A stretch of 42,033 bases of DNA from a virus. Of the stretch, positions 1 to 31,086 are shown piece by piece. Made by a program: the position numbers and the translations under genes. Position 1 is the first letter of the stretch. Every line of letters starts with the position of its first letter. The stretch covers positions 1 through 42,033 of the IMG/VR virus record IMGVR_UViG_3300029811_000080; one strand, given 5' to 3'. The notes beneath the pieces are model-generated. The model had not been told where the DNA came from. It saw only the letters and a program-made list of their open reading frames with translations, and made no database searches.

Positions 1-30
1 ACTGAGAACAATAGCGATGGCGATGGCTAA
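1..30 (+). CDS. C-terminal end of Gly-rich repeat protein (partial, wraps from right end)
   Basis: The first ten codons read TENNSDGDG and a stop. The same bases, with one mismatch over 29, recur at 41941-41969, just after the start codon of the Gly-rich gene at 41938. The window's last codon ends exactly at 42033, so joining 42033 to 1 keeps the frame and closes a 41-residue protein. This is either the true end of that gene in a circular molecule or a second repeat copy left by an assembly break. No start codon is inside the window. Confidence 0.5.
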   Translation, partial: TENNSDGDG

Positions 31-51
31 TTCCATAAAAAAGAGATAAAA

Positions 52-246
52 ATGGGATTAAAACATTTAAGACAGGCAGAAGAGATATTTAAACAGAATC
101 CAGATAGACTGTTTTATAAAACAGAAATTAGGGATATAATTGGAACTAGTTACCTGCTGGTCTTGGATGTTTTAGATTACCTTTTGCATGACAAGAAAAT
201 CCTTAAGGTTGGAAATAAATATAGATGGAATGGAGGCAAAAAATGA
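52..246 (+). CDS. Small winged-helix-like DNA-binding protein
   Basis: This 64-residue basic protein reads as a helix (residues 1-15), a second helical segment containing FYKTEIRDIIGTSYLLVLDVLDYLL (about 20-45) and a final strand pair KKILKVGNKYRW. That order of recognition helix then beta wing is typical of minimal winged-helix proteins. It is the first complete gene of the left + strand operon, and its stop overlaps the next start by ATGA, so the two are probably co-translated. The function is inferred from shape only; no catalytic motif is present. It could be a transcriptional regulator or a DNA-processing accessory protein. Confidence 0.65.
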   Translation: MGLKHLRQAEEIFKQNPDRLFYKTEIRDIIGTSYLLVLDVLDYLLHDKKILKVGNKYRWNGGKK

Positions 247-485
247 CTAAAATAAAAGAAATATTGTTTGAAGGAAGAAATGAAAAAGTAACAGATTTAG
301 AAACTTATGAGATATATCAAGGAAAATGTAGGGCAGTCAGATGCCTGCTAGTGTGTGGGGGTGATGAGGTAATAAGGATCTCCTCTGAGGGTAAATTAAG
401 TCATGCAACCAGAAAATATTATTTAGATAATTGCAAGGAACTAAAAAAAGTAACTAGTAAGATAAGAATAATTGTAGATTCATAA
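243..485 (+). CDS. Hypothetical protein, 80 aa
   Basis: I chose the ATG at 243 because GGAGG lies eight bases upstream and the start overlaps the previous stop (ATGA). An earlier in-frame ATG at 225 would sit inside the upstream gene with no ribosome site. The product is a mixed alpha/beta protein with predicted strands around CRAVRCLLVCGGDEVIRIS and a terminal SKIRIIVDS strand. I do not recognise the family. Its operon position suggests an early viral function. Confidence 0.65.
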   Translation: MTKIKEILFEGRNEKVTDLETYEIYQGKCRAVRCLLVCGGDEVIRISSEGKLSHATRKYYLDNCKELKKVTSKIRIIVDS

Positions 486-489
486 TCCA

Positions 490-645
490 ATGATAAGAAT
501 AACCCCAATCATTGCAGATGTCACAGACCTGACATATAACGAAGTAGTTGAGAAGTATGAATCAATATATGGATTCAAAGAAAAAGAGGGAAAAATCTTT
601 GCAGAAATAGGATATATCCAGATTGAAGGGGGAATGAAAGAGTAA
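490..645 (+). CDS. Hypothetical protein, 51 aa
   Basis: A short open frame starts at ATG 490, five bases after the previous stop, and ends at 645. The product begins MIRITPIIADVTDLTYNEVV and is acidic in its second half. It has no cysteines and no membrane segment. The tight spacing and codon use match the neighbours, which supports it as a real gene; the ribosome site is weak. The family is not recognised. Confidence 0.5.
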   Translation: MIRITPIIADVTDLTYNEVVEKYESIYGFKEKEGKIFAEIGYIQIEGGMKE

Positions 646-663
646 ATTATATGAGGGGTTAAA

Positions 664-930
664 ATGAATAAAAAAATACTGCGTGAGGAAGATATGTTGT
701 TTTTAGATGAATTTGGGATTAATGCTGTTGGAAACTTATTAGATAAGCGAGGCTACGAAAGGGTGAAATTAGATTTTGGATATTTGAAGGCAGCCATAAA
801 TATTCTTGAATTACAAAGAATAAAAGAAATTACCTTATTTGTGAAAACTGACAGCCCTTTTCAAATAGGAACAGACAAAATAGGAGTCATCATTGCGCCG
901 AGAGTAGATATCAAGAGGGAAGACCAATGA
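664..930 (+). CDS. 88-aa protein with possible PCNA C-terminal-like segment
   Basis: The start at 664 follows a GAGGGG ribosome site. The first half is helical. The second half, about residues 36-82, reads YLKAAINILELQRIKEIT, then TLFVKTDSPFQIG, then KIGVIIAPRVD. That order (helix, strand with D-x-P, final strand ending in APR-hydrophobic-acid) is how archaeal PCNA sliding clamps end. At 88 residues it is about a third of a clamp and could not form a normal ring alone. The resemblance is from memory of the family and is weak. The stop overlaps the following nuclease-like gene by ATGA. It might be a decoy, a clamp partner or an unrelated fold. Confidence 0.5.
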   Translation: MNKKILREEDMLFLDEFGINAVGNLLDKRGYERVKLDFGYLKAAINILELQRIKEITLFVKTDSPFQIGTDKIGVIIAPRVDIKREDQ

Positions 931-1196
931 AAGAATCAAACATCTGTGATATAGTAAAGAATATAGTAGAGATTAACCTTGGCGGTGATGCTTTTTCAAA
1001 TGTGATATACAAACATGGAGAAATGGATGTATTGCATATAGCCTCAGAAGGCTGTAGAACATATTATGAAATAAAAACTACCAATAAATATAAGAGTATT
1101 CACAAAGGAATAAGCCAGATTAAAAGAGCTATGAAGTATGGCATGTGTGATTGTGGATATGTAGTCACACCTGATGGCTGGGAGCAAGTAAAATGA
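927..1196 (+). CDS. Minimal PD-(D/E)XK-like nuclease
   Basis: This 89-residue protein carries the order expected of a PD-(D/E)XK core: a first helix, the strand GEMDVLHI with Asp34, the strand TYYEIK with Glu48 and Lys50, then helix GISQIKRAMKYG with Gln64, and the closing strand CGYVVTP. Asp34, Glu48 and Lys50 would form the metal site. The family includes Holliday-junction resolvases and restriction-like nucleases; 89 residues is near the minimum. The gene overlaps both neighbours by ATGA, so it is co-translated with the PCNA-like gene upstream and the SWIM gene downstream, which fits a role in viral DNA processing. Activity is inferred. Confidence 0.65.
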   Translation: MKESNICDIVKNIVEINLGGDAFSNVIYKHGEMDVLHIASEGCRTYYEIKTTNKYKSIHKGISQIKRAMKYGMCDCGYVVTPDGWEQVK

Positions 1197-1738
1197 GTGA
1201 ATACATCCGACAGCAAGCAGATAAGCATACGGTGAAGCATGAATCTAGTGGAAAATTGCATTTCTTTGAAGTCACAAGCGGCAATAGTGGCAAGAAATAT
1301 TCAGTTTCTATAAAGATAAACTGCGATTGTGCCTATACAAGCATAAAAGGTCAGGCTAATGCCACAATGTGCTCTCATGTGCTTGCTGTGCTGAGAGAAA
1401 TAATCAACAGAGCGGATATTCAGATAATCCATAGTGAGAACATCATGGATAAAAGAAATGCTTGCAAACAACTTGTAAGAAGTGGTGAGAATATGACTGA
1501 CATAACAGAAGAACAATTAAGAAAAGGGATACAGAAAGCAAAAGAAACAGGTATTTCACCAGATGTTTTACTGATTCCAAGACCAAAATTAAACACTATT
1601 AATATCTGTGGAATTGAATTATATGTTACGCCAAACCATTATTTATGCACAGTTGAAGGAATAGAAATACATATAGATGAGAAGATGCCTAAAGATAAGG
1701 CATACTTAATTGATTCAAAAACAATGGTGCTATTATGA
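1193..1738 (+). CDS. SWIM zinc-finger protein
   Basis: The N-terminal half contains a CxC...CxH zinc motif: Cys44, Cys46, Cys60 and His62, spaced as in SWIM domains (CxCx13CxH). SWIM domains bind DNA or partner proteins and occur with recombination and chromatin factors. From about residue 103 a second part begins with a helical segment ITEEQLRKGIQKAKE and continues as a beta-rich tail that I do not recognise. Start and stop overlap the neighbouring genes by four bases. The SWIM call is from visible residues; the DNA-binding role is inferred. Confidence 0.75.
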   Translation: MSEYIRQQADKHTVKHESSGKLHFFEVTSGNSGKKYSVSIKINCDCAYTSIKGQANATMCSHVLAVLREIINRADIQIIHSENIMDKRNACKQLVRSGENMTDITEEQLRKGIQKAKETGISPDVLLIPRPKLNTINICGIELYVTPNHYLCTVEGIEIHIDEKMPKDKAYLIDSKTMVLL

Positions 1739-1959
1739 AAAACATACATTATACAAGAAAATATAAGGTAGTGCTTTGTCCTGCTTGTGATGAGATTCAA
1801 GTATCAGTGCAAGGATTTAAATGCAAATATTGCAATAAAAAGACTACAATCATAAGTTCAGGCAAAGCCAAATTCCCAGTATCAATATTGAACTCATACC
1901 ATACAAAGAAAGAAGCAGAGATTGTCTGCAAACATTTAAAGGAAATAATCAGAGGTTAG
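1735..1959 (+). CDS. Zinc-ribbon protein, 74 aa
   Basis: Cys15-x2-Cys18 and Cys30-x2-Cys33 form a four-cysteine zinc ribbon. The rest is basic, ending in a helix KKEAEIVCKHLKEII. Such small ribbons usually bind nucleic acid or a protein partner. It overlaps the SWIM gene by ATGA. The specific partner cannot be told from sequence. Confidence 0.65.
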   Translation: MKNIHYTRKYKVVLCPACDEIQVSVQGFKCKYCNKKTTIISSGKAKFPVSILNSYHTKKEAEIVCKHLKEIIRG

Positions 1960-1963
1960 ATAA

Positions 1964-2140
1964 ATGATATACGGACTTCAAAGAAAGAAGAAAGACATGA
2001 CCAGAATGATTAAATTAGAAGAGAAGAAGAAAGACCCCTATCTAATGAAGATACAAAGTTTGAGAAAGGCTCAACAGAACTGCCAAAAACAGATAAATGA
2101 TATAAAAAAAACAAAAGAATTAAATAAAAAGATTTCATAA
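1964..2140 (+). CDS. Small Lys-rich coiled-coil protein, 58 aa
   Basis: The frame starts at ATG 1964 with GAGGTTA just upstream and ends at 2140. The product is extremely basic and helical (many KKK runs, QSLRKAQQNCQKQINDIKK), likely a short coiled coil or nucleic-acid binder. It is the last gene before the tRNA-like RNA. The family is not recognised. Confidence 0.5.
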   Translation: MIYGLQRKKKDMTRMIKLEEKKKDPYLMKIQSLRKAQQNCQKQINDIKKTKELNKKIS

Positions 2141-2156
2141 ATCATATTCACTGGGC

Positions 2157-2337
2157 AGGATTGGCTACTTCATTTGGATTTGCCTCTGATTGACTTTCTG
2201 AGCCCGCCTGGTTTCATAGGGATTGAGGGCGGAGAGGAAAGCCGCAAGGTCACTAGGTTTGGGAAAACCAATGTGAGGAGCACCCTAGGATCCTACTTAT
2301 ACCCCAAGTGTTGCAGGTTCGAATCCTGCCAATCCTA
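2157..2337 (+). ncRNA. tRNA-like structured RNA with about 150-nt insert
   Basis: The 3' end is a perfect T-arm: stem GCAGG (2313-2317), loop TTCGAAT, stem CCTGC (2325-2329), followed by CAATCCT (2330-2336) and A. The 5' end AGGATTG (2157-2163) pairs fully with CAATCCT as a 7-bp acceptor helix, and the pairing can extend to 9 bp. No clear D-arm or anticodon arm follows. The interior holds a CCCGCC/GGGCGG hairpin (about 2203-2232), the string GAGGAAAG, a TTGG-GAAAA-CCAA hairpin and a CTAGG/CCTAG helix (2253-2288). It could be an intron-rich tRNA, a tRNA-like viral RNA or the tRNA end of an attachment site. No protein gene lies between 2141 and 2357. Confidence 0.5.
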
Positions 2338-2357
2338 TTATTATCTTGGAGGTAAAA

Positions 2358-2516
2358 ATGACTGAAAAAGAAAGAAGAAGATTATTGTTCTTGAGGGAAG
2401 ATAAAGAAATCTTTGGCTTAACTTATCCTGAAGAGCAAGAATTAAAGAAGTTAGAAAGCAGGAGGAAAAATGAAATTTGTGAGGATTTAACAAATGACAA
2501 AACCAATAAGCTATAA
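2358..2516 (+). CDS. Hypothetical protein, 52 aa
   Basis: ATG 2358 has a strong GGAGG five bases upstream (2348-2352), directly after the tRNA-like RNA. The product begins MTEKERRRLLFLREDKEIFG and continues as a charged helix (EEQELKKLESRRK). It is probably a small helical protein; the family is not recognised. The good ribosome site supports translation. Confidence 0.55.
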   Translation: MTEKERRRLLFLREDKEIFGLTYPEEQELKKLESRRKNEICEDLTNDKTNKL

Positions 2517-2589
2517 AGGACAAAAGAAGTGTAGGAGACTCAATGAATTTGTAGAAGAAGAGGATGAAACTGATGAAAACAAGACCTGA
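2494..2589 (+). CDS. Very small hypothetical protein, 31 aa
   Basis: This frame (start 2494, GAGG upstream) begins MTKPISYKGQKKCRRLNEF and ends in an acidic tail. It overlaps the genes on both sides (2358-2516 and 2573-2692), in keeping with the compaction of this operon. Its shortness keeps confidence low. Confidence 0.35.
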   Translation: MTKPISYKGQKKCRRLNEFVEEEDETDENKT

Positions 2590-2692
2590 ACTGATGATAG
2601 AACTTAATGAACTTTTAGGGAAAAATTATAACTGGAGACGGCTTCACTTGCTTGATTTGCAGAGGCTTGTAGATTCTATTAAAGCAAAGTAA
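2573..2692 (+). CDS. Small hypothetical protein, 39 aa
   Basis: Start 2573 is preceded by GAGG. The product contains ELLGKNYNWRRLHLLDLQRL, an amphipathic helical segment of the kind seen in many small phage proteins that fold as short helix-turn units. It is the last gene before the promoter at 2693. The function is unknown. Confidence 0.45.
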   Translation: MKTRPELMIELNELLGKNYNWRRLHLLDLQRLVDSIKAK

Positions 2693-2710
2693 ACCAAAGG
2701 TTTATATATA
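2693..2710 (+). promoter_or_regulatory. Archaeal BRE/TATA promoter
   Basis: The sequence AACCAAAGG followed by TTTATATATA (2701-2710) matches the element seen at 38938, 39801 and 40919. Transcription would begin near 2730. A 12-codon frame (2750-2788) lies between this site and the membrane-peptide gene at 2785. Confidence 0.65.
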
Positions 2711-2784
2711 AGATATAATTAAAGTAATAAAAGTAAGTAAAGTAATAACATGGTATCATTATACCTAATTGCAGAGGTGATTAA

Positions 2785-2901
2785 ATGAAAATTAATATTG
2801 AGTTTGAGATAGGTGAGAATTACAAAGAATGGATAGCTATTGCTGTGCCTATATTATCAACATTGGCTATTGTCCTGACTTACGTTTTGGTGGTCATATA
2901 A
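2785..2901 (+). CDS. Single-span membrane peptide, 38 aa
   Basis: After a charged start (MKINIEFEIGENYKE) the product has one hydrophobic segment, WIAIAVPILSTLAIVLTYVL, reaching the C-terminus. It follows GAGGTGA and overlaps a 12-codon leader frame (2750-2788) by ATGA. The next gene starts immediately after its stop. Small one-span viral proteins can act as holins or membrane modifiers; nothing more specific is visible. Confidence 0.55.
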   Translation: MKINIEFEIGENYKEWIAIAVPILSTLAIVLTYVLVVI

Positions 2902-3144
2902 ATGGTATCGGAAAAACTAAAAACATTGAAAGAATTAGAGATTACATCAGGACATCCCATGTTTAATATGGGGGCAGCAACGCAATATAAAACAATGAAA
3001 GCAGAAGCTATCAAATGGATTCAGGAGCTATCGTTAGCAAATTCAGGGAATAGCCATATTGATGAAATATATGAATTCAATCACGGAAGAGTTATCGGAT
3101 GGATTAAGCATTTCTTCGAAATAACAGACGAGGATTTGAAATAA
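2902..3144 (+). CDS. Small helical protein, paralogue of 34593-34844
   Basis: This 80-residue protein has TLKELE near the N-terminus, the central helix AIKWIQEL, and the C-terminal GRVIGWIKHFFEITDEDLK. The gene at 34593-34844 keeps the same anchors (TLKELE, IEWIK, GRI, FNISEDDLK), so the two are paralogues carried in different modules. The other copy adds a zinc ribbon that this one lacks. It starts at the base after the upstream stop. I recall this C-terminal pattern from uncharacterised viral proteins but know no function. Confidence 0.65.
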   Translation: MVSEKLKTLKELEITSGHPMFNMGAATQYKTMKAEAIKWIQELSLANSGNSHIDEIYEFNHGRVIGWIKHFFEITDEDLK

Positions 3145-3287
3145 TGTCATTAATACATATAGATATTCCAGACAATGAACATAGGAAAGCAAAATCTTAT
3201 GCAGCAATAAAGGGAGTAAATCTTAAAGATTATTTCATAGAGGCAATAAAAGAGAAAAATGATAATACCAAAAGAACAATTAAATGA
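3144..3287 (+). CDS. Ribbon-helix-helix (CopG/Arc-like) protein, 47 aa
   Basis: The start overlaps the previous stop. The product reads as an N-terminal beta strand (MSLIHIDIPD) followed by two helices (EHRKAKSYAAIKGV, LKDYFIEAIKEK), the classic ribbon-helix-helix layout. Such dimers bind short palindromic operators and often repress their own operon. Specificity is unknown. Confidence 0.6.
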   Translation: MSLIHIDIPDNEHRKAKSYAAIKGVNLKDYFIEAIKEKNDNTKRTIK

Positions 3288-3495
3288 TCTAGGATTCATT
3301 GAAATAAAAGAAAACCTATTTATGAATGAATTACCTGGAGGCATTAAGTTATACAGAGATTATAGAAATGAGCCTCCAGTTAGTTATGCTTACCGTGGAA
3401 GTGACAAAATAAATTATAAGTTCATAAGAGAGTATCAAACTATCACCAAGATTGAAAGACAGATGGATGATATGAAAAAGGAGGGAGAATTATGA
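3259..3495 (+). CDS. Hypothetical protein, 78 aa
   Basis: The frame starts inside the end of the ribbon-helix-helix gene and has GAGG about 15-20 bases upstream. It is a mixed protein with a strand-rich middle (FIEIKENLFMNELPGGIKLYRD, predicted hairpin) and a C-terminal helix. The family is not recognised. The overlap is longer than typical here, so the true start may be a later Met. Confidence 0.5.
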   Translation: MIIPKEQLNDLGFIEIKENLFMNELPGGIKLYRDYRNEPPVSYAYRGSDKINYKFIREYQTITKIERQMDDMKKEGEL

Positions 3496-3620
3496 CACCA
3501 ACACGGAACAGACCCAACTATTTCAGTTCACCAAAAGAATTCACCGATTTTGAGATAGAAAGATTTATGATGGAAGAAATTGAAGAAGACGAAGAGAACA
3601 TTGAAAAGGAGTATGTATAA
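3492..3620 (+). CDS. Small acidic protein, 42 aa
   Basis: The start at 3492 is preceded by GGGAG and overlaps the previous stop by ATGA. The N-terminus is basic and proline-containing (MTPTRNRPNYFSSP); the rest is a strongly acidic helix (MMEEIEEDEENIEKEY). Acidic short proteins in viral early regions can mimic DNA, but that is only a guess. Confidence 0.45.
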   Translation: MTPTRNRPNYFSSPKEFTDFEIERFMMEEIEEDEENIEKEYV

Positions 3621-3621
3621 G

Positions 3622-3756
3622 ATGTTCAATTTTCCTTATTGCATAACAGACGGCTGGAATCATATCAATTGTCAAAATGGATGGTGGGATGTTTTCCTTG
3701 CTATGTTTTTGGTTGTATTATTCATTGCTGTTTGGAGGAAAATAATATTCTCATAG
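3622..3756 (+). CDS. Single-span membrane protein, 44 aa
   Basis: The frame starts at ATG 3622, one base after the previous stop, with AAGGAG upstream. A polar N-terminus with two cysteines (YCITDGWNHINCQNGW) precedes the hydrophobic segment DVFLAMFLVVLFIAVW and a short basic tail RKIIFS. This suggests an outward N-terminus. It is the last gene of the left + strand operon. A lysis or superinfection role is possible but unproven. Confidence 0.55.
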   Translation: MFNFPYCITDGWNHINCQNGWWDVFLAMFLVVLFIAVWRKIIFS

Positions 3757-3776
3757 TCGCATATCTCCTCGCGTGT

Positions 3777-3830
3777 GCAGGCATTCGTTGCGACAAGGGT
3801 TCACCTCATCCTTTATTTGCGGATGCCTGC
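3777..3830. terminator. Long hairpin between convergent operons
   Basis: GCAGGCAT (3777-3784) is the exact reverse complement of ATGCCTGC (3823-3830), and one wobble plus two more pairs extend the stem to 11 bp around a loop of about 32 nt. It lies between the end of the + strand operon (3756) and the end of the - strand structural operon (3935). A bidirectional 3'-end or stabilising element is the simplest reading. Nothing else is evident in 3757-3934. Confidence 0.4.
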
Positions 3831-3934
3831 TTTATTCTACATAGAACTACTTAAATCAAATCAAAAGAAGAATAAATATATCATTCTAAGGTGTTATAAT
3901 GTGTAGTATCAGACCCTAATAACCGAAAATTCCA

Positions 3935-5134
3935 TTATTGGAATACATCTCCGTTTAATTGTAATACCAGTGCATTTCCTGTGCCACCTGCACCCCCATT
4001 ACCATCAGCCCCAGTTCCTCCTGAACCACCTGTAACTTGAATTGCCCCTGAATTTGAATAAGTCCCAAGATGTCTTAACATAATTGAACCTCCTCCACCT
4101 CCACCGCTTCCTCCAGCATCACCTGTTGCAGCACTAGGAGTATTTCCTCTGCAATCTATATCTCCAGCCGCACCTATACTAATATTGCCTTTGGCAATAA
4201 TAATTAAACTCATGCCACCTGTGCCTCCAGTTGCACTTGTTCCGCCTTTGGATGTTCCAGAAGCTCCCCCTGAACCATTAATTGCAACTGGATGCCATTG
4301 ATATATTAAAGTATGTTTTAAAAGTGTCATATTCATAGATAATTTTGAACTCCATCCAGTTCCACCAATTCCACCAACAGCAATACCTGTCTTTCCACCA
4401 TTAGCACCATTTGAATAACCACCGCCACCGCCACCGCCAGCATTATCATCACCACTTCTAGTACCATTAGCTCCACAAGTAGAACAATCATCTGTTACAC
4501 TTGAACCACTACTACCATTCCCCTCACCAACTTGTGAAGCTCCACCAACTTTACCTTTACCTTTTAAATTAATAGTTCCATTAATTGTAACATCTCCTTG
4601 ACATAGAAGTATAATTGTTTCACTAGAATCACTACTTGATGTTCCTAATGTAGCACCTGTTGATATATTGATAGAAGTATATTTTTTTATTCCAGCTGTA
4701 ATATTAGTAGTTCCTGTAGTTATATTTAAAGCACCATCTGAACCGTCACCAAAAACACTATAAGGAATAAATTTACTATCTGTCCCATCATGATCATGTC
4801 CTGTGGAAGTATTGCTTATTGTATCCGCATTTGTAACAGTAGCACCAGATACTACCAATCCTGCGCCGGATACAGCATAACCAGCACCGGATACTGTGCT
4901 TATTGTGTTTGCATTTGTAACTGTTGCGCCGGATACTACAACCCCTGCTCCTGATACTACAACTCCCGCTCCGGATACAGCATAACCAGCCCCAGATACA
5001 GTACCTAATATTCCTGATTCTGTATTAATCCTGTTAGTGATAAAGTTAAGTCCTGAAGCTCCATCTGCTTGTCCTGTGAAACTTCCTGCAGTAAGCATTC
5101 CGCCGCTTGAAAAGTTTGTATGTAAATCTGCCAT
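3935..5134 (-). CDS. Glycine-rich tail fibre / adhesin
   Basis: This 399-residue protein closes the tail module, where receptor-binding proteins usually sit. Residues about 42-110 are tandem beta repeats of the type VSGAGYAVSGAG and VSGATVTNA. A middle beta domain (about 130-200) follows. From about 205 to 395 it is a glycine-rich domain with runs such as GGGGGGGY and GGSGGTGAD. Glycine-rich tips of this kind in phage adhesins form polyglycine-II sandwiches that contact host receptors. The start has a good GGGAGG site. It is probably the host-recognition protein; its partner is unknown. Confidence 0.65.
   Translation of the reverse strand: MADLHTNFSSGGMLTAGSFTGQADGASGLNFITNRINTESGILGTVSGAGYAVSGAGVVVSGAGVVVSGATVTNANTISTVSGAGYAVSGAGLVVSGATVTNADTISNTSTGHDHDGTDSKFIPYSVFGDGSDGALNITTGTTNITAGIKKYTSINISTGATLGTSSSDSSETIILLCQGDVTINGTINLKGKGKVGGASQVGEGNGSSGSSVTDDCSTCGANGTRSGDDNAGGGGGGGYSNGANGGKTGIAVGGIGGTGWSSKLSMNMTLLKHTLIYQWHPVAINGSGGASGTSKGGTSATGGTGGMSLIIIAKGNISIGAAGDIDCRGNTPSAATGDAGGSGGGGGGSIMLRHLGTYSNSGAIQVTGGSGGTGADGNGGAGGTGNALVLQLNGDVFQ
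4815..5010 (-). repeat. Intragenic repeats of the fibre gene
   Basis: Near-identical units encoding VSGAG(Y/V)(A/V)V recur at least six times, and the block ending in VSGATVTNA(N/D)TIS occurs twice. The repeats are similar in DNA as well as protein, pointing to recent expansion or contraction of the shaft. Confidence 0.7.
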
Positions 5135-5519: not shown

Positions 5520-7055
5520 TTAAAATCCTCCTCCACTTATTACCAGCGTGCTTCCAAGTCCGCCCTGAATCAGGTTGCCTACACCTATTCGACTATCAGG
5601 ACTTTCTATCAAACCATGTTTCTCTGAATGAAATACGAAATTATTGTTTATTGCACCAGTCCATATCTCCCAATGAGTATCAATATCAACATGTTTAGTT
5701 GCAGTTTTAAGTGTTGTGAAATCTCCTACAAGTTCGCCAATCTCAACATTTCGTATCCTGTTCATATTATCCTGCATAACATCTGTGAAATCTGATACTT
5801 TCTTATTGACATCTATAGTTAAAACTTTCTCAGAAAGGTTATTGGTAGCATTAAAAGAATAGGAAACAGATAATATTGTATATGTTTGACTGCTAATACC
5901 ATGCCAAGGTAAATCAACTATGCATGTATTCCCTGCAGTGATAGTTATTACTCCTTTTATGTTTATTGTCCCCTGAATCTTTGGGTCTTTATTTTCTGCC
6001 AGGAAAGCTGTAGCCTTTTCATTAGCCTCAACATAACTTTTTATGTTAGAATCTTTGATTATTTTAGTTTTAGGACCATAAGCAGTGATACTTGTAACAT
6101 CATGTATATATTTTAAGATAGGTGCTAATCTTTCGTATTCCATGAAAACTGAGCCCGCAGCAGGGATATTTTCGCCTGCAGTTGTGCCTGAAGTGAACAC
6201 TATCTGTTTATTATGGAAATCAAGTAACCATTTTGAATCTTTAGTGGCAGGGTCATCCATATTAATTATACCCCCAGGCTGGATTATAGCAGGATTAGTC
6301 CCACTTGTATATACTCGAGTATTATGCGGTTTATCAGTTAAAGTGAACACGCTGCCTGTACCGTCAGATTTTAAATATTGTGAATTACCAGTAAGCACCC
6401 TATCACCATATACCCAAACTTTATTAAATATTTCTCTATCTTCTTTCTTGAATTTTGCACGGATTACATTAGTCTTATCAAATGTTTCGCCGCTTGATAT
6501 GGTAGATTTTAATATAAAATTTACATCTTTGTCTTCATCAACGAACCAATAACAATCCGCAAGCTCTGCCAATTCATTAAGAGAATTAAATATATGTTTA
6601 TGGTTAAAACCTATGGCTCCTATTGTGACCCCTGTAGAAAGATTAATATTATTGACTGACACTAAACCCTCGGCATTATTGGCAATGATAGTTTTTGCTA
6701 TCAAGCCTGCATCCTTATTTTTATATATTATCGGACTAACAGTCATATCCTGCAGCACTGCCCCGTAATCCCTGCCTCTTATTGTTACTCTTTCTTCACT
6801 AGCATCACCATCAAAACTTATGTCTTCTATTATGCCTGTAAAGATTTTTGTTGTTGCAGGGTTTGTATCCTTATCCGCATAAATTATAACTTCATCATTC
6901 AGATTAAATGTATTATTATACATGCCTGTGAAATTCTCAAACTCTACTGAGAAATTTGAGGCTGCATTGAAATCTCCTATGTTACGTTCTACATCAATAT
7001 TTAAAGAATCCTGGTATGTTGTACCACCGATAGTAATCTTTGTGTATATTGTCAT
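5520..7055 (-). CDS. Tail hub / baseplate protein (gp27/GpD-like)
   Basis: The 511-residue protein begins with a beta-rich domain (about 1-90) containing FSVEFENFTGMYNNTFNLNDEVIIY and FTGIIEDISFDG, as in hub proteins such as Mu gp44, T4 gp27 and lambda-type tail proteins. A middle region holds LNELAELADCYWFVDEDKDVNF, the segment that in hubs precedes the second barrel, then an inserted domain and a C-terminal Gly-rich tail. It directly follows the tape measure gene with no gap. A hub that caps the tube and contacts the cell envelope is the expected role. Confidence 0.65.
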   Translation of the reverse strand: MTIYTKITIGGTTYQDSLNIDVERNIGDFNAASNFSVEFENFTGMYNNTFNLNDEVIIYADKDTNPATTKIFTGIIEDISFDGDASEERVTIRGRDYGAVLQDMTVSPIIYKNKDAGLIAKTIIANNAEGLVSVNNINLSTGVTIGAIGFNHKHIFNSLNELAELADCYWFVDEDKDVNFILKSTISSGETFDKTNVIRAKFKKEDREIFNKVWVYGDRVLTGNSQYLKSDGTGSVFTLTDKPHNTRVYTSGTNPAIIQPGGIINMDDPATKDSKWLLDFHNKQIVFTSGTTAGENIPAAGSVFMEYERLAPILKYIHDVTSITAYGPKTKIIKDSNIKSYVEANEKATAFLAENKDPKIQGTINIKGVITITAGNTCIVDLPWHGISSQTYTILSVSYSFNATNNLSEKVLTIDVNKKVSDFTDVMQDNMNRIRNVEIGELVGDFTTLKTATKHVDIDTHWEIWTGAINNNFVFHSEKHGLIESPDSRIGVGNLIQGGLGSTLVISGGGF

Positions 7056-8805: not shown

Positions 8806-9183
8806 TTACTTTTTTTTTAACTCAAGTTCATTATTTTCTATCACTGTCTCTGCTTTCTCACTCATCTTTTCCTGGGTTACGTCAAGGCTTACTGCAAGAA
8901 TAGCTATGGCTATCGCATTTGCATAAGAAGGTTTTATGTCTTGCAATTTCTTTTCATCCATAACGGGTTTCACCAATCCTAACAAGATTATCTCATTATC
9001 AGATCTTAACTTTTCTTCCTGACTCCCAGAAGTTGCTTTTGAGTATATTGTTCTTAGTTGTCCTCTTGAAAGAGGTCTTATCATTACAGTGGGTTTATTT
9101 TCCAACAATTCAAGTATTACTTCTTCAGCAATTAAATTACCATCTTCTCCCCTTTCAAATAACATAGTGTTTTCTTCTAACAT
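8806..9183 (-). CDS. Tail assembly chaperone (gpG-like)
   Basis: The 125-residue protein sits just before the tape measure gene, where tail chaperones are found. It has an acidic beta N-terminus and helical middle (MIRPLSRGQLRTIYSKATS, ANAIAIAILAVSLDV) and ends ELELKKK. The last codons hold nine A residues on the coding strand (8818-8810) right before the stop at 8806, a likely -1 slippery site into the frame at 8794-8630. The start at 9183 has GGAGGA. The family name is assigned by position and architecture. Confidence 0.65.
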   Translation of the reverse strand: MLEENTMLFERGEDGNLIAEEVILELLENKPTVMIRPLSRGQLRTIYSKATSGSQEEKLRSDNEIILLGLVKPVMDEKKLQDIKPSYANAIAIAILAVSLDVTQEKMSEKAETVIENNELELKKK

Positions 9184-9198
9184 TTTATTCCTCCTTAA

Positions 9199-9816
9199 CT
9201 AAATCATAATTACCTCAATAGGATAATATAATTTGTTTGTTTTAATTGTTTCAATTCTTATAAATTTGTTTGTCTGAGGTTCGATTATCCACACCTTTTT
9301 ATTATGATCAACCATAATATTAAACGCATGTATCTTGCTCCAGGCAATACCTAAAGCGAACTGCTTAAGTCCAGTATTCCAGTACCCCATCAATGCAAAA
9401 CTAAACTCATCACAGTCATGCTTTTCTTTTACCCATTTCTTTGATTCAAGTTTGGTAGCTTTACTGAAAGCCCTGGCTTTTGTCATGCTTGTAAGACCAT
9501 AAATGACATCTGATAAATGAACATTCTTACAATGAGATTCAAGTAAATGTCTCATATCTTTGATGTGCATCTCACCTAACTTCTCAGGCTGTTTAATGAT
9601 AGCACTTAAGTTCTGCTTTTTCAATGATGCAATCTCTCTTAATAAGTCGTTGATATGTAATCTAAGGTCGTTAACCTCTAATTTCTCTAACCTAATTTCA
9701 TCCAAATACTTTACATTTAATTTATCTATATTTAGCTTTAGTTTATATATTTCATCACCAAATAACTTGATATATTGTCTTTCAATGAAATTCTTATAAA
9801 AAATAAAAAAGTCCAT
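9199..9816 (-). CDS. Papain/transglutaminase-like cysteine hydrolase
   Basis: I chose ATG 9816, just after the upstream stop. The 205-residue protein has an N-terminal coiled coil (about 20-75) and a C-terminal domain with HDCDEFSF (Cys135), KIHAFNIMV (His163) and WIIEPQTN (Glu179). This C/H/E order, with CDxF, HAxN and EPQ, is what I recall from the papain-like domain of MOA-related agglutinins and transglutaminase-like enzymes. In a tail module it may cleave envelope or capsid proteins. Archaeal viruses do carry such folds as pseudomurein endopeptidases, but that substrate is not shown here. Confidence 0.5.
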   Translation of the reverse strand: MDFFIFYKNFIERQYIKLFGDEIYKLKLNIDKLNVKYLDEIRLEKLEVNDLRLHINDLLREIASLKKQNLSAIIKQPEKLGEMHIKDMRHLLESHCKNVHLSDVIYGLTSMTKARAFSKATKLESKKWVKEKHDCDEFSFALMGYWNTGLKQFALGIAWSKIHAFNIMVDHNKKVWIIEPQTNKFIRIETIKTNKLYYPIEVIMI

Positions 9817-9820
9817 GTTT

Positions 9821-10861
9821 TTACCACGGATTATATAAATGCGTACGATCAAAAGCAGAACCTGTCACATGCTGAGGTCGGATATCAAAACTTAGCTCGT
9901 TTGCACCGTCTGTTGTGCTGGGGTTATCCATGCTGGTTATGTGGCACCCACTCATATAAAATATTGAGTGTTTACTTCCAACTGCAGTGATGTCAGCGTT
10001 TAGATCCAGAGTGGTATTAAACTCACTGCCACCTTTGTAATATTTCTCATATAACCATGCTGCATCCTGGCCGTCAAGGTCTGCTGTAACCGAAAGAGAA
10101 TAATCCCGGTTTCCATTATATGGCGTGCCTATAACTCTGCTTCCATTGAGGTAATGTGGAGCTGTCATATTACCTGCAACAGCAAACGTAACTTCTTTGG
10201 CAGTATCCATGGGACTGCCTGCAACTGTCAATAGACTATCTTCCCACATGTACGGTGTTAAGTATTGAGTTCCGCTATTGATTAATGTTGTTGTAGTCCC
10301 TGAAGAGAATATTATATGTTCTGCGATATAATCCACTTCTATTGTTGTTTTCTCACCTTGGGATAATGTAAGTGTGGTTGTGTTAGAAACAACACCTTTC
10401 ACAGACCTTATAAAATTTCTTCCAGTTCCCGGAGATTGTTTTGAATCTTCTATTGTAAAACTCATTGGCGCAGGATGAGAATTTGTGCCTGAAGTGAATG
10501 GACTTTGCCAAACATCACTATCAACTTCGCTTACTGCATGCGTGCATGTTGTTGCTGTTGCCCCGGATACTTCAACAGTAGATCCAATTGCATAAAACAT
10601 AAGCCTCATATCATGAGCATTATAAGTTAGTGTACCAGTTACATCATGATGTCCCCTGTCCATTGTGTCATAAGACCTGGAAGCAGTGCCCATATATCTA
10701 TCTTCCATATAAGTCTCAGCATCATCTATGGTATGGTCTGTCACCTGACCTAGCCAAAATGTACTTCCTGCAACGCTGTCTGCACCGTTCGCATTATTCG
10801 CATAAGTCCCACTTTCATGGATGCCTAACACTTTATTCATATCGCTTAGAAATCTTGCCAC
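9821..10861 (-). CDS. Major tail tube protein
   Basis: This protein of about 346 residues is beta-rich and Thr/Ser/Gly-rich, with an HK97-gpV-like layout: N-terminal SGTYANNANGADSV, central long strands and a C-terminal SFDIRPQHVTGS. It lies between connector/terminator genes and the chaperone gene, the standard site of the tube protein. I prefer the GTG at 10861, nine bases after GGAGG; a GTG at 10870 is too close to that site. At about 346 residues it is longer than simple tube proteins, so an extra surface domain is likely. Confidence 0.65.
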   Translation of the reverse strand: MARFLSDMNKVLGIHESGTYANNANGADSVAGSTFWLGQVTDHTIDDAETYMEDRYMGTASRSYDTMDRGHHDVTGTLTYNAHDMRLMFYAIGSTVEVSGATATTCTHAVSEVDSDVWQSPFTSGTNSHPAPMSFTIEDSKQSPGTGRNFIRSVKGVVSNTTTLTLSQGEKTTIEVDYIAEHIIFSSGTTTTLINSGTQYLTPYMWEDSLLTVAGSPMDTAKEVTFAVAGNMTAPHYLNGSRVIGTPYNGNRDYSLSVTADLDGQDAAWLYEKYYKGGSEFNTTLDLNADITAVGSKHSIFYMSGCHITSMDNPSTTDGANELSFDIRPQHVTGSAFDRTHLYNPW

Positions 10862-11122: not shown

Positions 11123-11365
11123 TCAGTTTTTGATATATTGACTTGCTTCTATCTTTGTGCAGCCCAATTCTAATGCCACATCTTTTGTTGTCAAACCTGC
11201 CTTAGATAGTCGTTTAGCTTTGTCTGCTATCGGTTCTGAGGCTGTCTTTACTGAGGCTGTCTTTACTGAGGCTGTCTTTGCTTTCTTTTCAATTTTTACC
11301 GGGATTCCCGGTGTGTTCATTTCTTTATTTGCCTGTGGTCTTGTGTGTTGCATTCCAAAATCCAT
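11123..11365 (-). CDS. Repeat-linker protein with C-terminal helix-turn-helix
   Basis: I chose ATG 11365 because GGAGG lies upstream; the open frame extends further but lacks a site. The 80-residue product has a Pro-rich start, three tandem KTASV repeats (residues about 34-48), then ADKAKRLSKAGLTTKDVALELGCTKIEASQYI, a homeodomain-like helix-turn-helix. The adjacent gene also carries a DNA-binding fold. It may be a tail-associated linker or a late regulator tucked into the operon. Confidence 0.55.
   Translation of the reverse strand: MDFGMQHTRPQANKEMNTPGIPVKIEKKAKTASVKTASVKTASEPIADKAKRLSKAGLTTKDVALELGCTKIEASQYIKN
11236..11280 (-). repeat. Three tandem 15-bp repeats
   Basis: CTGAGGCTGTCTTTA occurs at 11236, 11251 and 11266 (the last with one change), encoding KTASV three times on the - strand. 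Perfect DNA identity suggests recent slippage. Confidence 0.85.
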
Positions 11366-11378
11366 GTTAATCCCTCCG

Positions 11379-11831
11379 TTAGATGTCATAAAAATTGTAT
11401 TGAATATTAAGTAACCTTGATTTAGGCTGGTCCTCACCGTCTTCATCTACTTCAACTGCGCTAAGTAACTTGAAATTATGAAGATAATTTGCTATGCTCC
11501 CAGTAGAAGCAGTGAATTGTATATCTCGTAATCTTTTGTAACAATCATTTGCTAGCTCATCTTTTTCTTTCTGATTTCTGCCCCAGATTCTAATCTCTAA
11601 GTTCAGGATTACATCCATTGCATTGGTCTGCATTCCGGAAGATGTCCCTGAAAAGTTTGTAAGTTTTATTGTGATTAGAGGATATTCTACTTTCCTTTGA
11701 GGGTAACTTGTCATTACAAATTTAGACTGAGTAGTTCTTGCAGCAGTTAGGGGATCAGTGATATTACTAAGAAAATCATTTTTAATGAAAAATAGTATGT
11801 CTCTTGGAAATGTGCCTGATTCTATTACCAT
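11379..11831 (-). CDS. Tail terminator / head-tail joining protein
   Basis: This 150-residue protein has the pattern of gpU/gp17-type tail terminators: an N-terminal helical part (IKNDFLSNITDPLTAA), the strand YPLITIKLTNFSG, a central strand DVILNLEIRIWGRNQKEKDELANDCYKRL (strand then helix) and a C-terminal strand pair. It sits after the gp10-like gene and before the tube gene, as expected. GAGGATAC precedes the start. The name is by fold pattern and position. Confidence 0.6.
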   Translation of the reverse strand: MVIESGTFPRDILFFIKNDFLSNITDPLTAARTTQSKFVMTSYPQRKVEYPLITIKLTNFSGTSSGMQTNAMDVILNLEIRIWGRNQKEKDELANDCYKRLRDIQFTASTGSIANYLHNFKLLSAVEVDEDGEDQPKSRLLNIQYNFYDI

Positions 11832-12291: not shown

Positions 12292-12995
12292 TAGCTTTCA
12301 CCTATGAATGAGCCAGCAGTTAATTTCCTGATATAAACCTTTTTGTATATCTGGACTGCGCCAACTTCTATAGGCAACCCCCCAATAGGGATCATAGTAA
12401 AATTATCTGCCTGGATTGGGCTTCCATTCATTCCGATCTTAACTTTAAATATGCTTCCTGTACTTGTGAAGTCAAGGGAACCATTAACAAATAATCTCTG
12501 GTCATGAAGACTTAATTTACCTTGTTCTACAAGGTTATAATCTTCTGAACCATACTTGTTATTTAAAGGGAATACTATTCCTGAAGTCCATACTGTTGAA
12601 CCTGTAACCTCTGATAATGTGACTTCATCATCATATACTGAACCTGTGACCATAGAATAATATTTGATAGTGATAGGTTTGCCTGCATAATCTACCATCC
12701 TTTTAAATCCTAATGAGAAGTTATTAGCCAAATTACTTTCTTCAGATAATTTAACTACATCATAACTTACACTGATAGGAGTATCATTATATACTTTAAT
12801 TAGGAATGTGATTACTGTCCCGGTATCATTATGAACTACAGTATAATCTAAGTCTATGTATAGATAACTACCGCTATGAGTTACAAGGAATCTCCCGCCT
12901 ACTGTCTTGATAGTATTGGCTAATGTTAATGTCCTGTTCTTATTACCTGAAGTTCCTGTTAAATTGGCACCTGTATAATCTTCTGTATCGCTCAT
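12291..12995 (-). CDS. Virion-associated beta protein, 234 aa
   Basis: ATG 12995 overlaps the upstream stop by ATGA and has GGGGGA six bases before it; the ATG at 13004 lies on top of that site. The protein is beta-rich, Thr/Ser/Asn-rich and lacks cysteines and a signal peptide. It lies between the giant LamG protein and the gp10-like gene. It is probably structural or a partner of the LamG protein, but the family is not recognised. Confidence 0.55.
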   Translation of the reverse strand: MSDTEDYTGANLTGTSGNKNRTLTLANTIKTVGGRFLVTHSGSYLYIDLDYTVVHNDTGTVITFLIKVYNDTPISVSYDVVKLSEESNLANNFSLGFKRMVDYAGKPITIKYYSMVTGSVYDDEVTLSEVTGSTVWTSGIVFPLNNKYGSEDYNLVEQGKLSLHDQRLFVNGSLDFTSTGSIFKVKIGMNGSPIQADNFTMIPIGGLPIEVGAVQIYKKVYIRKLTAGSFIGES

Positions 12996-15900
12996 ATAAA
13001 ACATCCCCCTGAATCACATCTAATCCAACATTTATCGCTGCTATTATAACCAGCTGTGGTAATATTCCCATGATTAGATACATTACCTGCAAATGTTATA
13101 TTACCTTGTCCTGCATCGGACTGATTGATAATAATCTGTTCTCCACCCATATCAGTCGCAACCAATTCACAGTTATCGCTGCAATCAATATGCCAAGTTC
13201 CTGAACCTGAATATGTACAAGTATCTTCGGCACTTTCTGCTTCTTCTACCCCAACAGTATAAAAGGTTGAAGGTGAATTTTGGTTGTCATACTCAGTTTT
13301 AATCCAACCTGATGAACGAGCAACATTAGAAGCACGAACTTCATCTATGGTGCCATTGAATGATTCTGGTGGATCATCACTAATAAATCTATTGGTCAAT
13401 ACCTCAGTCCCCCAATTTGGTGTAAAGGAATCTATTGTTGACCCTATACTTGCGCCATCCTTATAAATTATTCCTGTTGTTCCGTCATATGTTGCAACAA
13501 CATAATAAAAAGTATCAACAATCATTCCATGACTATAGTCCCAAAAAGTGTATGATGAACCATCACCAATATAAAAGTCTAATGATGTACCATCTAATCT
13601 AAAAGATGCACCCTTGTTAGAGTTTGATGACTTAATTATACCTGTATTCACAACAAAACTTCGGGTGGAAATCCACGCACTGAATGTAATCTCATCCCCT
13701 GACGTTGGAACTGGTCTTTTTGTTAAACTAATATGGTCATTTGTCCCATCAAAATCTAAACTCCCATCAATCTGTCCTGCTACTTGGTCAGCACTATCCA
13801 TCCCTGAAGTTGTCCCATTATTTCCGTTTGAAGTGGAATCATAAGTTGTCCCTGCTGGTGTCTCCTGCAAATGCTGAACCATCAAAAAATTACTATCCCA
13901 AACATCATTTACATTCTCTTGATTACTTGCAGCTGCATTACCATAATACATTTGTATAACAGTATCTGTACTACCACTTAAACTAGGTATCCTAACCCAT
14001 GCCTGTAATTCGCCAGTAGTTCCGTTATAAAATTCTATCTCATGGTCTAATTTACTGCCTGAACTGTTTACAAACACTATATCGTCACCGTCAGCTTGTG
14101 CATCATCTCTCAAATCTGTATCTGTTATATTTATTAAAATAGGGAAATTAGTTTGGGTTCCGTTCACTTTAGAAGAATTTATGGTAATGTTTTTCTTATA
14201 AGACCAAGAAGAATTATACCATGGTGTTGCTGTGCTTATTGTAATTGTCCTTTCCTCAGTATTATTTAAATTCCCTGCTATATTTTTAACAAATGTTTGG
14301 TAAGTGTAAATTCCATCATCTAGCCCATCAGTGGTATTCTTACTTTGATTTAAATAAAGAGTCCAGTTATCTGTGTCATATTTATTTAAATTAGAAAGAT
14401 ACATTATTTCAATTTCTTGTTTAGTAAAACTCCTATTAACATAAATTCTATATTCGTCAATTGTGCCATTAAAAAAATCGTCATCTTGGGTATCCTTACT
14501 TCCAATTGTCAAATTTGCAGTATTAGAAATTGAACCAGAAACTGTATTATCATCTTCTCCTGCTGTAAAACTAGTTTGATTAACCCCATCAATCCATAAC
14601 TCTGCTAAATCACCAATTCTTTGTCCTAGTCCAAAATGCCAATTATCATCACAAACATCCTGCGTTGATTGTAATGTTGCAGTATTTGGGCTTGCGCCAG
14701 GTCCCCTAAACTGCAAAGACAATACATCAGCATCGCCATAACCTCCCACTTCCATTTTATACCATCCCCCAGCATTATGAGTGGCAGTACTTCCTTTTCT
14801 TGAAATATCTGAATCCAAACAATAATCACATTTAAACCAAAACATCATAGCAAAATCAGTATCTCCAGGATTTAATGAATCACTATGAGGGATATGAATA
14901 CTTTGACCATCAGAAACAAAATCTGTAGTTGTAAACTGAAATGCCCCATTATATTTCCCGCCAGAAATCCATTGAGGTAATCCTGACTGATCATGCCCAG
15001 CATCAGTGATATTAGTTAAATTACCATGATTTTCATTTCCTGAAAAATCATAAACTAAACAATTCCAATCACTACATTCCTCAAATGCAGAAATATTATC
15101 AAAATTAAATCCTAAAACTAACTTGTCATCATACATAGTATAATTAGTTCCATTCCAATTCCATTTTATTTCGTCTAAATTACTTTCAGTTATTGAAACA
15201 TTGATTTGAATTGAAGTGTTTGAAGTAGTTGTATCATTTACAGGAGTGGGGGTTGTGAAGTCAATGTAGGGGTAGGAGTCTGCCTCTTCTGCCCCAACTG
15301 TATAGAAGGTTGAAGGTGAGTTTTGATTGTCATACTCAGTTTTAATCCAACCAGCAGAACGAGAGGTGTTGGAGATTCGGACTTCGTCCATTGTACCATT
15401 GAAATGCTGATTCCCTCCAGGTGAAGAAGTATCCTGAGATCGCGCAATTCTCAGGAGATTATTGCTATTGGTTATTAATGATTTTGGGAGTGTCCCAGAT
15501 CCGTTTTGTTGTCCATTTATATAAAAAACATAATTATCGCTTGAATCAACGGTGATACTAATTTGTTGACTTTGACTAACAATTATTTTATTAATGCTAA
15601 TTACACTGAACCAACCACTGTTATAACCAGCTAACATTAATTTTTCTTCGTTAACACTATTATAAGATCCTTCAATAACAAAAGCATAATTACTTGGACC
15701 ACCACCACCACCACCACGATGGCTTACTAACGCAAAACCGTTATCAGAAGTGGTTACACTATTTGGATTTATCCAAAGAGATATAGTAAGTGCGGTAATA
15801 TCCAATGAATTATCAGAGCCACAAGTTAGATGATCATCATTCCCATCAAAATCTAAACACCCATCAATCTGTCCTGCTACTTGGTCTGATGTGTTCATCC

Positions 15901-17680
15901 CTGAAGTTGTTCCATTATTTCCATAAGATGTACTATCTTTAATATCTCCTGCCCCACCATCAATATCTGTCTCCTGCATATGCTGAACCATTTTAAAGTT
16001 GCTATCCCAAACACCATTCACATTTTCTTGATTACTTGCACCTGCATTACCATAATACATTTGTATAACAGTATCTGTACTACCACTTAAACTAGGTATC
16101 CTAACCCAAGCCTGTAATTCGCCAGTAGTTCCGTTATAAAATTCTATCTCATGGTCAAGTTTTGTACCAGAAGTATTAGTAAACACTATATCATCACCAT
16201 CATTCTGGGCGCTGGTTGAAAGGTTAGCATCAGTCATACTAATTAATACTGGGAAATTGGTTTGAGTTCCATTTACTTTAGAAGAATTTATTGTAATATT
16301 TTTCTTATAAGTCCATGAAGAATTATACCATGGGTCAAGGTAATAAAATCTATCATTATCTATTGCTTGTGTTAAAGTATCACTTGATATTTTAATGCCC
16401 CAGAAATATTTACCATCAATATCATTAAAACCTATAGGCATATCAACATACATCCTGATTTGGTATGATTTATTATTTTCAATAGCCACATCTTTGATAT
16501 AATACCATTGATTCATACCTTGAAATTGTCTGTTTATTTGATTGAATGAATGAGTAAAATCTACCCAATCTACTATCTTTGAATAATCTGTTTGCCAAGT
16601 TATAGTATAATTATTGCCCTCAGTATTTTCGTAACTATCAAAACATATCACTGAATCTGTCTGATTATATGATTCACACATTTCAGATGTTTCATTATAT
16701 TTACTACATACCATATATGATATGTTCCTTTTATGATTGTTATATTCATTGCCATAATCACAATCACCTGAAGTGACACTTATATCAGACACATCCTGGA
16801 ATGAATGGGTATGATTATTGCTCCAATTAACATAATGAGGCTTATATAATTCAGCTTTTTTCGGTTTTACATTTGAACTATTAAACCCCCAAACTGCATC
16901 AATGTTACCTGAATAATGTTTAGATGTAAGATTAAAATATACCCACCCGGGAGAACTTATAGTGTGAGGAGAGGATGAAAGATAGACATTAGAATCTTCC
17001 ATAAATACAGTATCATCAATTATGGCCCAATCATCAGAGTTTTCACCTAATATAATCTCTGGGTCAAAAAAAGCATTACCTTCAAATACTCTGGTTCGTA
17101 TCTTTAATTTTCCGTTCTGGAATCTTTCAACTCTTACAATGTTATCTAATTCTTGCTCCCAGTTATTAATAATCTTAAAATCCATCTCTGCCTGAGTTCC
17201 TCTAATGTTCTTATCCACATAAACTACCTTATCTTTAAATTCATCTAATTTGCTATAAGTCCAAACAAAATATGTTCTTAAATTAGAATCAATAGGATCC
17301 CATTCAAAACTTTCTTTAACCTTATATTCAGTGATTTCAAAATATCTAGTAAGATTACCTTTACTATAATAGATAGTCTGCTTAACATAAGTAATATCAT
17401 CTTCTGAATGATATGATAAGTTAGAATATTTTGCACCTCTATTTTTATACATAGTTACATATCCTTTACCGTTCCAATAATACGGCTGGATAGAATCTTC
17501 AAAAGCTAAATATCGCCCATTATAAGCCTTAAATAAACCATCAGAATATTTTACTTTTACAGTATCATCATTTAAAATAATCTTAAATTTGTCAGGCTCT
17601 ATAAATATTGTTATCCCACCTATAACTACAAAAATGATAGAAGTTGCAATTATCCATTTTGTTATAGTTTGCCATTCCAT
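12992..17680 (-). CDS. Giant membrane-anchored DUF2341/LamG surface protein
   Basis: The 1562-residue protein has an N-terminal membrane segment (about 9-28, WIIATSIIFVVIGGITIFI), an extracellular region to about 450, DUF2341 (about 450-556), a LamG lectin-like domain (about 556-797), a second LamG (about 853-1083), a second DUF2341 (about 1153-1260), a third LamG (about 1260-1475) and a Cys-rich tail with CTYSGSGTWHIDCSDNC. There are dozens of N-x-S/T sites. Such proteins are typical of archaeal cell surfaces, and LamG domains bind glycans. It lies inside the connector-tail operon, four bases from its neighbour, so it is expressed as a late gene. It may be a virion adhesin or a host-surface modifier. 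Confidence 0.75.
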   Translation of the reverse strand: MEWQTITKWIIATSIIFVVIGGITIFIEPDKFKIILNDDTVKVKYSDGLFKAYNGRYLAFEDSIQPYYWNGKGYVTMYKNRGAKYSNLSYHSEDDITYVKQTIYYSKGNLTRYFEITEYKVKESFEWDPIDSNLRTYFVWTYSKLDEFKDKVVYVDKNIRGTQAEMDFKIINNWEQELDNIVRVERFQNGKLKIRTRVFEGNAFFDPEIILGENSDDWAIIDDTVFMEDSNVYLSSSPHTISSPGWVYFNLTSKHYSGNIDAVWGFNSSNVKPKKAELYKPHYVNWSNNHTHSFQDVSDISVTSGDCDYGNEYNNHKRNISYMVCSKYNETSEMCESYNQTDSVICFDSYENTEGNNYTITWQTDYSKIVDWVDFTHSFNQINRQFQGMNQWYYIKDVAIENNKSYQIRMYVDMPIGFNDIDGKYFWGIKISSDTLTQAIDNDRFYYLDPWYNSSWTYKKNITINSSKVNGTQTNFPVLISMTDANLSTSAQNDGDDIVFTNTSGTKLDHEIEFYNGTTGELQAWVRIPSLSGSTDTVIQMYYGNAGASNQENVNGVWDSNFKMVQHMQETDIDGGAGDIKDSTSYGNNGTTSGMNTSDQVAGQIDGCLDFDGNDDHLTCGSDNSLDITALTISLWINPNSVTTSDNGFALVSHRGGGGGGPSNYAFVIEGSYNSVNEEKLMLAGYNSGWFSVISINKIIVSQSQQISITVDSSDNYVFYINGQQNGSGTLPKSLITNSNNLLRIARSQDTSSPGGNQHFNGTMDEVRISNTSRSAGWIKTEYDNQNSPSTFYTVGAEEADSYPYIDFTTPTPVNDTTTSNTSIQINVSITESNLDEIKWNWNGTNYTMYDDKLVLGFNFDNISAFEECSDWNCLVYDFSGNENHGNLTNITDAGHDQSGLPQWISGGKYNGAFQFTTTDFVSDGQSIHIPHSDSLNPGDTDFAMMFWFKCDYCLDSDISRKGSTATHNAGGWYKMEVGGYGDADVLSLQFRGPGASPNTATLQSTQDVCDDNWHFGLGQRIGDLAELWIDGVNQTSFTAGEDDNTVSGSISNTANLTIGSKDTQDDDFFNGTIDEYRIYVNRSFTKQEIEIMYLSNLNKYDTDNWTLYLNQSKNTTDGLDDGIYTYQTFVKNIAGNLNNTEERTITISTATPWYNSSWSYKKNITINSSKVNGTQTNFPILINITDTDLRDDAQADGDDIVFVNSSGSKLDHEIEFYNGTTGELQAWVRIPSLSGSTDTVIQMYYGNAAASNQENVNDVWDSNFLMVQHLQETPAGTTYDSTSNGNNGTTSGMDSADQVAGQIDGSLDFDGTNDHISLTKRPVPTSGDEITFSAWISTRSFVVNTGIIKSSNSNKGASFRLDGTSLDFYIGDGSSYTFWDYSHGMIVDTFYYVVATYDGTTGIIYKDGASIGSTIDSFTPNWGTEVLTNRFISDDPPESFNGTIDEVRASNVARSSGWIKTEYDNQNSPSTFYTVGVEEAESAEDTCTYSGSGTWHIDCSDNCELVATDMGGEQIIINQSDAGQGNITFAGNVSNHGNITTAGYNSSDKCWIRCDSGGCFI
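13250..16335 (-). repeat. Two-copy DUF2341-LamG duplication inside the giant gene
   Basis: DNA at about 13250-14225 and about 15290-16335 is strongly similar, with long nearly identical stretches at both ends (for example 13930-14050 against 16050-16170). The copies encode the two DUF2341 plus LamG units. The middle LamG (about 14430-15120) is different. Intragenic duplication followed by divergence of the lectin part is the likely history. Confidence 0.75.
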
Positions 17681-29307: not shown

Positions 29308-29311
29308 TTTA

Positions 29312-31041: not shown

Positions 31042-31086
31042 CTTTTCACTCCTATGTTCATCTTTTCACTCCTATGTTCATCTTTT
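31027..31086 (-). repeat. Three tandem 20-bp repeats carrying a start codon and ribosome site
   Basis: CACTCCTATGTTCATCTTTT occurs exactly three times, at 31027, 31047 and 31067. On the - strand each unit supplies ATGAACATAGGAGTG, so it has both a start codon and a GGAGTG ribosome site for the next copy. Two upstream copies encode seven-codon frames (MNIGVKR, stop) that end by ATGA overlap into the next start. Confidence 0.9.

Follow-up and report, generated by a model that had tools for sequence, protein, structure and literature searches.

The 42,033-nt stretch of viral DNA analysed here (the window; record IMGVR_UViG_3300029811_000080, with linear ends according to the IMG/VR classification) contains, at positions 2157-2337 (+), a 181-nt element with the acceptor helix and T-arm of a tRNA at its ends. 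These ends are real. The reading we favor, to which we give an even chance, is that the element is a viral RNA gene combining a tRNA acceptor helix and T-arm with no decoding arm, on the plan of the T4 species 1 RNA (rnaC), and that its product is processed and CCA-tailed and has a functional interior; transcription, processing, CCA addition, stability, and function of this RNA are what we infer. The RNA is probably new as an individual, with a plan similar to that of T4 species 1 RNA.

The virus and its likely host

The gene set of the contig is that of a tailed virus, including a terminase, a portal with a Mu-F domain, an HK97-type capsid, a tail tube, and a tape measure protein. The host is likely an archaeon, because annotated relatives of the capsid include haloarchaeal tailed viruses and because BRE/TATA-like boxes, found by pattern matching, head several genes in the window and in its relatives. 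A search of GTDB genomes with the terminase profile found no provirus, and a search for relatives of the protein encoded at 1193-1738 returned none. The reverse strand also carries, at 28186-37365, a sugar/surface-glycan module of glycosyltransferases, a UDP-glucose dehydrogenase, a nucleotide-sugar epimerase, methyltransferase fusions, and a B12-binding radical SAM protein and, at 12992-17680, a gene for a protein of 1562 aa that contains LamG-like and DUF2341 stretches and may be an adhesion fiber.

tRNA-type ends and a GC island define one element

The element occupies the gap between an ORF at 1964-2140 and an ORF starting at 2358 (Table 1). As originally predicted, it is framed by a perfect T-arm and a closing acceptor helix, the latter forming part of a 9-bp inverted repeat (AGGATTGGC/GCCAATCCT) that reaches to 2165 and runs into the T-stem. 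In dinucleotide-shuffled sequence, 0.05 T-arms as good as this one are expected per window, and the combination of such a T-arm with a perfect 7-nt acceptor strand at most 300 nt upstream was seen in 0 of 300 shuffles. The approximately 150-nt interior lacking D and anticodon arms was also borne out, the enclosed sequence measuring 149 nt with neither arm recognized.

Table 1. Features of the 2157-2337 element and its upstream region
Feature	Positions	Strand	Basis
Possible archaeal promoter, BRE/TATA-like AAAAGAATTAAATAAA	2113-2128	+	Pattern match only
TCATATTCA motif, 6 nt upstream of the acceptor strand; the L003 array spacer is TCATAYTCA	2142-2150	+	Motif comparison
5' strand of acceptor-type helix, AGGATTG	2157-2163	+	7/7 Watson-Crick pairs with 2330-2336
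Interior, 149 nt, GC 0.50; no D or anticodon arm recognized	2164-2312	+	Folding against shuffles; GC island
Alternative 5' acceptor strand GGGATTG (6 Watson-Crick pairs and 1 GU), followed by D-arm-like GGCGGAGAGGAAAGCC	2219-2225	+	Acceptor scan; ARAGORN, relaxed
Candidate hairpin beside the T-arm, 5 bp and 7-nt loop, around TACTT-ATACCCC-AAGTG	2293-2309	+	Constrained fold only
T-arm, perfect, GCAGG-TTCGAAT-CCTGC	2313-2329	+	Sequence; T-arm/acceptor scan, shuffles
3' acceptor strand CAATCCT and discriminator A2337; CCA not encoded	2330-2337	+	Sequence

The composition of the region marks out almost the same stretch. Likelihood segmentation by GC content gave 2149-2330 as the top GC-rich segment of bases 1-3900, with a score reached by 0 of 200 block shuffles, and the GC content of the element (0.497) is equalled by fewer than 0.1% of the 180-nt stretches of the window. 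Because this segmentation is blind to structure and its borders coincide with those of the acceptor helix, it favors one gene of about 181 nt over both a 3' tRNA fragment and a start at 2219. The 2219 start is also the less favored in energy, its closure being 8.7 kcal/mol worse than that at 2157 when the T-arm is held.

These borders bear directly on an attachment site (attP), in which the T-arm and 3' acceptor strand would have been copied from the 3' end of a host tRNA gene for use by an integrase and the 5' complement would have arisen by chance. Such an origin would account for the T-arm, a 7-nt complement is expected by chance within 300 nt at a rate of about 2% (4^-7 x 300), and two control viral contigs (L083 and L132) show similar tRNA 3' ends without a tRNA. 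However, the 5' complement matches exactly and continues to 9 bp, and the GC island spans the whole closed element rather than its 3' end, features for which attP fails to account. Moreover, no integrase was found among the window proteins scanned, on a contig that may be incomplete, and the sequence immediately before the T-arm does not resemble an anticodon stem and variable loop. A search for the 28-nt 3' end in 84,980 GTDB genomes, which need not include the host, gave no match. We regard attP as unlikely.

Upstream, the promoter-like box lies about 30-45 nt before the element, and a transcription start some 25 nt past AAAAGAATTAAATAAA would be predicted near 2147. A similar sequence, AAAGACTTAAATAGA, heads an array of tRNA-like units in a related virus (L003, described below). 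The TCATATTCA/TCATAYTCA motif occurs 6 times in the window, where 2.1 copies are expected, which is weak when taken alone.

Searches for known RNA classes

The original prediction had proposed ARAGORN and Rfam searches, and these gave no tRNA, tmRNA, RNase P RNA, or other family for 2157-2337 at default settings and cut-offs. Two resemblances suggested from the letters thus found no counterpart: a supposed likeness of the interior to the CR-I region of RNase P RNA (no Rfam match to that RNA up to E = 10) and a likeness to tmRNA (no ARAGORN or Rfam call and no tag frame). A large interior closed by tRNA-like ends is nonetheless what the window RNA shares with tmRNA. YrlA-type Y RNA, which resembles it as a T-arm-bearing non-coding RNA mimicking tRNA, scored 14.7 bits against a cut-off of 69, on the wrong part of the sequence, and was rejected.

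The T-arm would also be explained by a gene for a working tRNA that begins at 2157 or 2219 and is interrupted by unusual introns (one or more) or by a large insert in the anticodon loop; an intron-rich tRNA had been among the possibilities first raised. At a 50% threshold, ARAGORN drew a weak class-II-like cloverleaf for tRNA-Ser(GGA) at 2219-2337 (119 nt, 24-nt intron), and insert-bearing tRNAs do occur in viruses: the terminase relative L023 has two tRNAs (6502-6589 and 11327-11464) with anticodon-loop inserts of about 15 and 64 nt, together with a weak tRNA-Trp-like gene (9392-9463), and the unrelated phage contig L133 (reverse strand 3220-3429, 4586-4746, and 2865-3212) has a predicted tmRNA, a tRNA-Pro, and two tRNAs with anticodon-region inserts of 133 and 72 nt. 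Like the window RNA, these insert-bearing tRNAs are viral and set an acceptor helix and T-arm around an enlarged interior; unlike it, they retain a normal D-arm and linker, and the L023 genes reach 47 bits with the tRNA model. Under loose limits, Rfam scored the element at no more than 19 bits as a tRNA (cut-off 29), from a start at neither 2157 nor 2219, and the relaxed cloverleaf has A at position 8 and lacks U33. Bulge-helix-bulge motifs are not enriched (24 against a shuffled mean of 19.8, with 53 of 200 shuffles as high); the larger L023 insert has no clear motif of this kind either. A scan deleting single segments in search of an intron-bearing tRNA (ARAGORN, 60% threshold) returned 4,564 weak and uninformative calls and no convincing tRNA, and a tRNA-Pro(UGG)-like anticodon arm drawn by hand, CTAGG-TTTGGG...CCTAG, was set aside because the flanking arms misfit and no bulge-helix-bulge is present there. 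On this evidence, an intron- or insert-bearing tRNA is improbable.

The interior is no more stable than expected

At least three helices had been proposed for the interior. Folding of the whole RNA without constraints gave z = -0.7 or -0.5 against shuffles in two runs, and with the acceptor and T-arm held fixed the interior had a z of about +1, if anything less stable than shuffles, so that the helices first drawn are not supported beyond what composition gives. With the ends held, the RNA folds in the order acceptor, long rod, hairpin, T-arm, the same order as in rnaC, at a level not better than chance; the rod helix beside the acceptor was discarded as a signal since 24% of shuffles do equally well. 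Without constraints, an alternative fold in which the T-arm is broken lies 2.5 kcal/mol below the fold with ends held. On the other hand, a genuine phage tRNA in L133 has a z near 0 in the same test, so a low folding score does not disprove an RNA. Exact matches between the RNA and the virus's own genes do not exceed 10 nt.

Odd tRNA-like elements in related viruses

No homologue was found by searching IMG/VR with the 25-nt T-arm/acceptor end and an interior motif or by blastn of the RNA against phages, plasmids, and terminase relatives, where one match at E = 0.07 in a terminase relative was a false lead. A terminase profile gave 31 viral loci, which were scanned for a T-arm with an acceptor strand alongside 80 other viral stretches as control; a pattern aimed at L003-like arrays (CACCANTCATACTCA) returned unrelated contigs, which were reused as a control set. 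Several terminase relatives carry odd tRNA-like elements, none of them a sequence homologue of the window RNA. For example, in L003, whose terminase is 64% identical, the 716-nt gap between terminase and portal holds an array of tRNA-like units (1168-1884) spaced by TCATAYTCA, a motif that also precedes the window RNA by 6 nt. Two of these units carry a terminal ACCA, and their closing helices, GACCGA/TCGGTC and GGTTGC/GCAACC, are compensated at 4 of 6 pairs; the unit at 1717-1798 is tRNA-Sec-like (27.9 bits against a cut-off of 47). Two larger units of this array are without explanation. L047 (3916-3977) has a tRNA-like element of about 62 nt consisting of an acceptor, a single hairpin, and a T-arm, with D and anticodon arms absent.

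The sole relative spanning the syntenic region, L189, has no T-arm there. Its intergenic stretches 9055-9440 and 9907-9993 instead contain a series of hairpins with differing 9-12-bp stems, three of them with z between -3.8 and -6.3 and several headed by ATTGTCGC or ATAGTCGC and with ATT after the hairpin; they have no Rfam match and lie directly upstream of a homologue of window 2902-3144, near the place of the window RNA. The failure to find a homologue kept in relatives, including L189, and an interior that is not unusually stable are what would be expected of a decaying or chimeric tRNA gene without function, which would also account for the T-arm. We consider such a relic quite unlikely, because the acceptor and T-arm are perfect and the GC content is high within an AT-rich genome.

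T4 species 1 RNA is the nearest known system

The favored reading, that of a tRNA-ended RNA gene, has a precedent in rnaC (RNA C; NC_000866 70908-71046, our locus L183:909-1047, with further copies L184-L187), a 139-nt RNA whose 3' part reads CCGGG-TTCGAAT-CCCGG-CGTTTCG. It is expressed late and has no known function (PMC9697503). We found it in more than 700 phage records, and like the window RNA it has no match at cut-off in tRNA searches or Rfam. In an alignment of five distinct copies from T4-like phages, all cells of the 10 acceptor and T-stem pairs counted are standard pairs, and 4 pairs are changed on both sides, far above slid controls; this count excludes two middle acceptor positions, which are T-T in T4, and the phiR1-RT acceptor pairs perfectly over 7 bp. 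The predicted fold of the interior is a long rod and a second hairpin adjoining the T-arm, with z = -5.4 in T4 and -6.2 in the other of the two copies tested. rnaC is thus a tRNA-ended RNA without an anticodon arm, in which a covarying acceptor helix and T-arm surround a non-tRNA interior.

The window RNA shares with rnaC a T-arm and 7-nt acceptor strands at its ends, a long interior, and the absence of an anticodon arm. It differs in length (181 nt against 139 nt) and in setting, rnaC lying in a tRNA cluster of a bacterial phage, and the interior of rnaC is a very stable rod (z = -5.4) of conserved sequence, whereas that of the window RNA has a z of about +1. A covariance model built from the five copies scores the phiR1-RT copy at 170.8 bits and finds nothing at 2157-2337; the likeness is therefore one of plan and not of family membership. 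GOLLD and ROOL are further viral non-coding RNAs that are linked to tRNAs and whose function is unknown (PMC12286853). They are far larger than the window RNA, which has no Rfam match.

Discussion

Our analyses leave a previously undescribed viral RNA or tRNA mimic, one of the possibilities first proposed, as the best surviving reading of the element, upheld by its tRNA ends, its GC island, and the lack of an Rfam family, while the richly folded interior that went with the proposal did not stand. In favor of a tRNA-ended RNA gene are a T-arm and acceptor beyond chance, the position in an ORF gap, the promoter-like box, and the failure to match a known family, joined by the precedent of rnaC, with the same ends covarying across five phages, and by the tRNA-like array of L003. 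Against it stand an interior no stabler than shuffles, unlike that of rnaC, the lack of a homologue and hence of covariation, the missing T-arm in L189, and the miss of the rnaC model.

The acceptor/T half of a tRNA is the main target of RNase P, tRNase Z, and the CCA-adding enzyme, and because this is the part that they mainly read, their action on the window RNA is the most likely route of maturation. Host RNase P would cut the transcript at its 5' end before A2157, tRNase Z would cut it at its 3' end after A2337, and CCA would then be added. RNase P also processes tmRNA, the tRNA-like ends of plant viruses, and phage RNAs (PMC11143913). The product would be a stable, protected RNA whose non-tRNA interior may carry a virus-specific function, our best guess being a protected regulatory or decoy RNA.

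More broadly, archaeal and bacterial tailed viruses might share widespread, unannotated RNAs in which an acceptor/T half gives unrelated payloads (rnaC, the window RNA, the L003 units) entry to tRNA maturation and which present tRNA finders miss, a generalization that we put forward tentatively and hold to be rather unlikely as it stands. If a virus that is unrelated to T4 and probably archaeal has an RNA built like rnaC, the wrapping of a foreign interior in an acceptor/T half would look like a recurrent viral device. The element also offers a search rule, namely a T-arm whose acceptor strand has its complement 100-300 nt upstream, the lack of any tRNA call, and a GC island, and such a search could find more tRNA-ended RNAs and reopen the question of their function.
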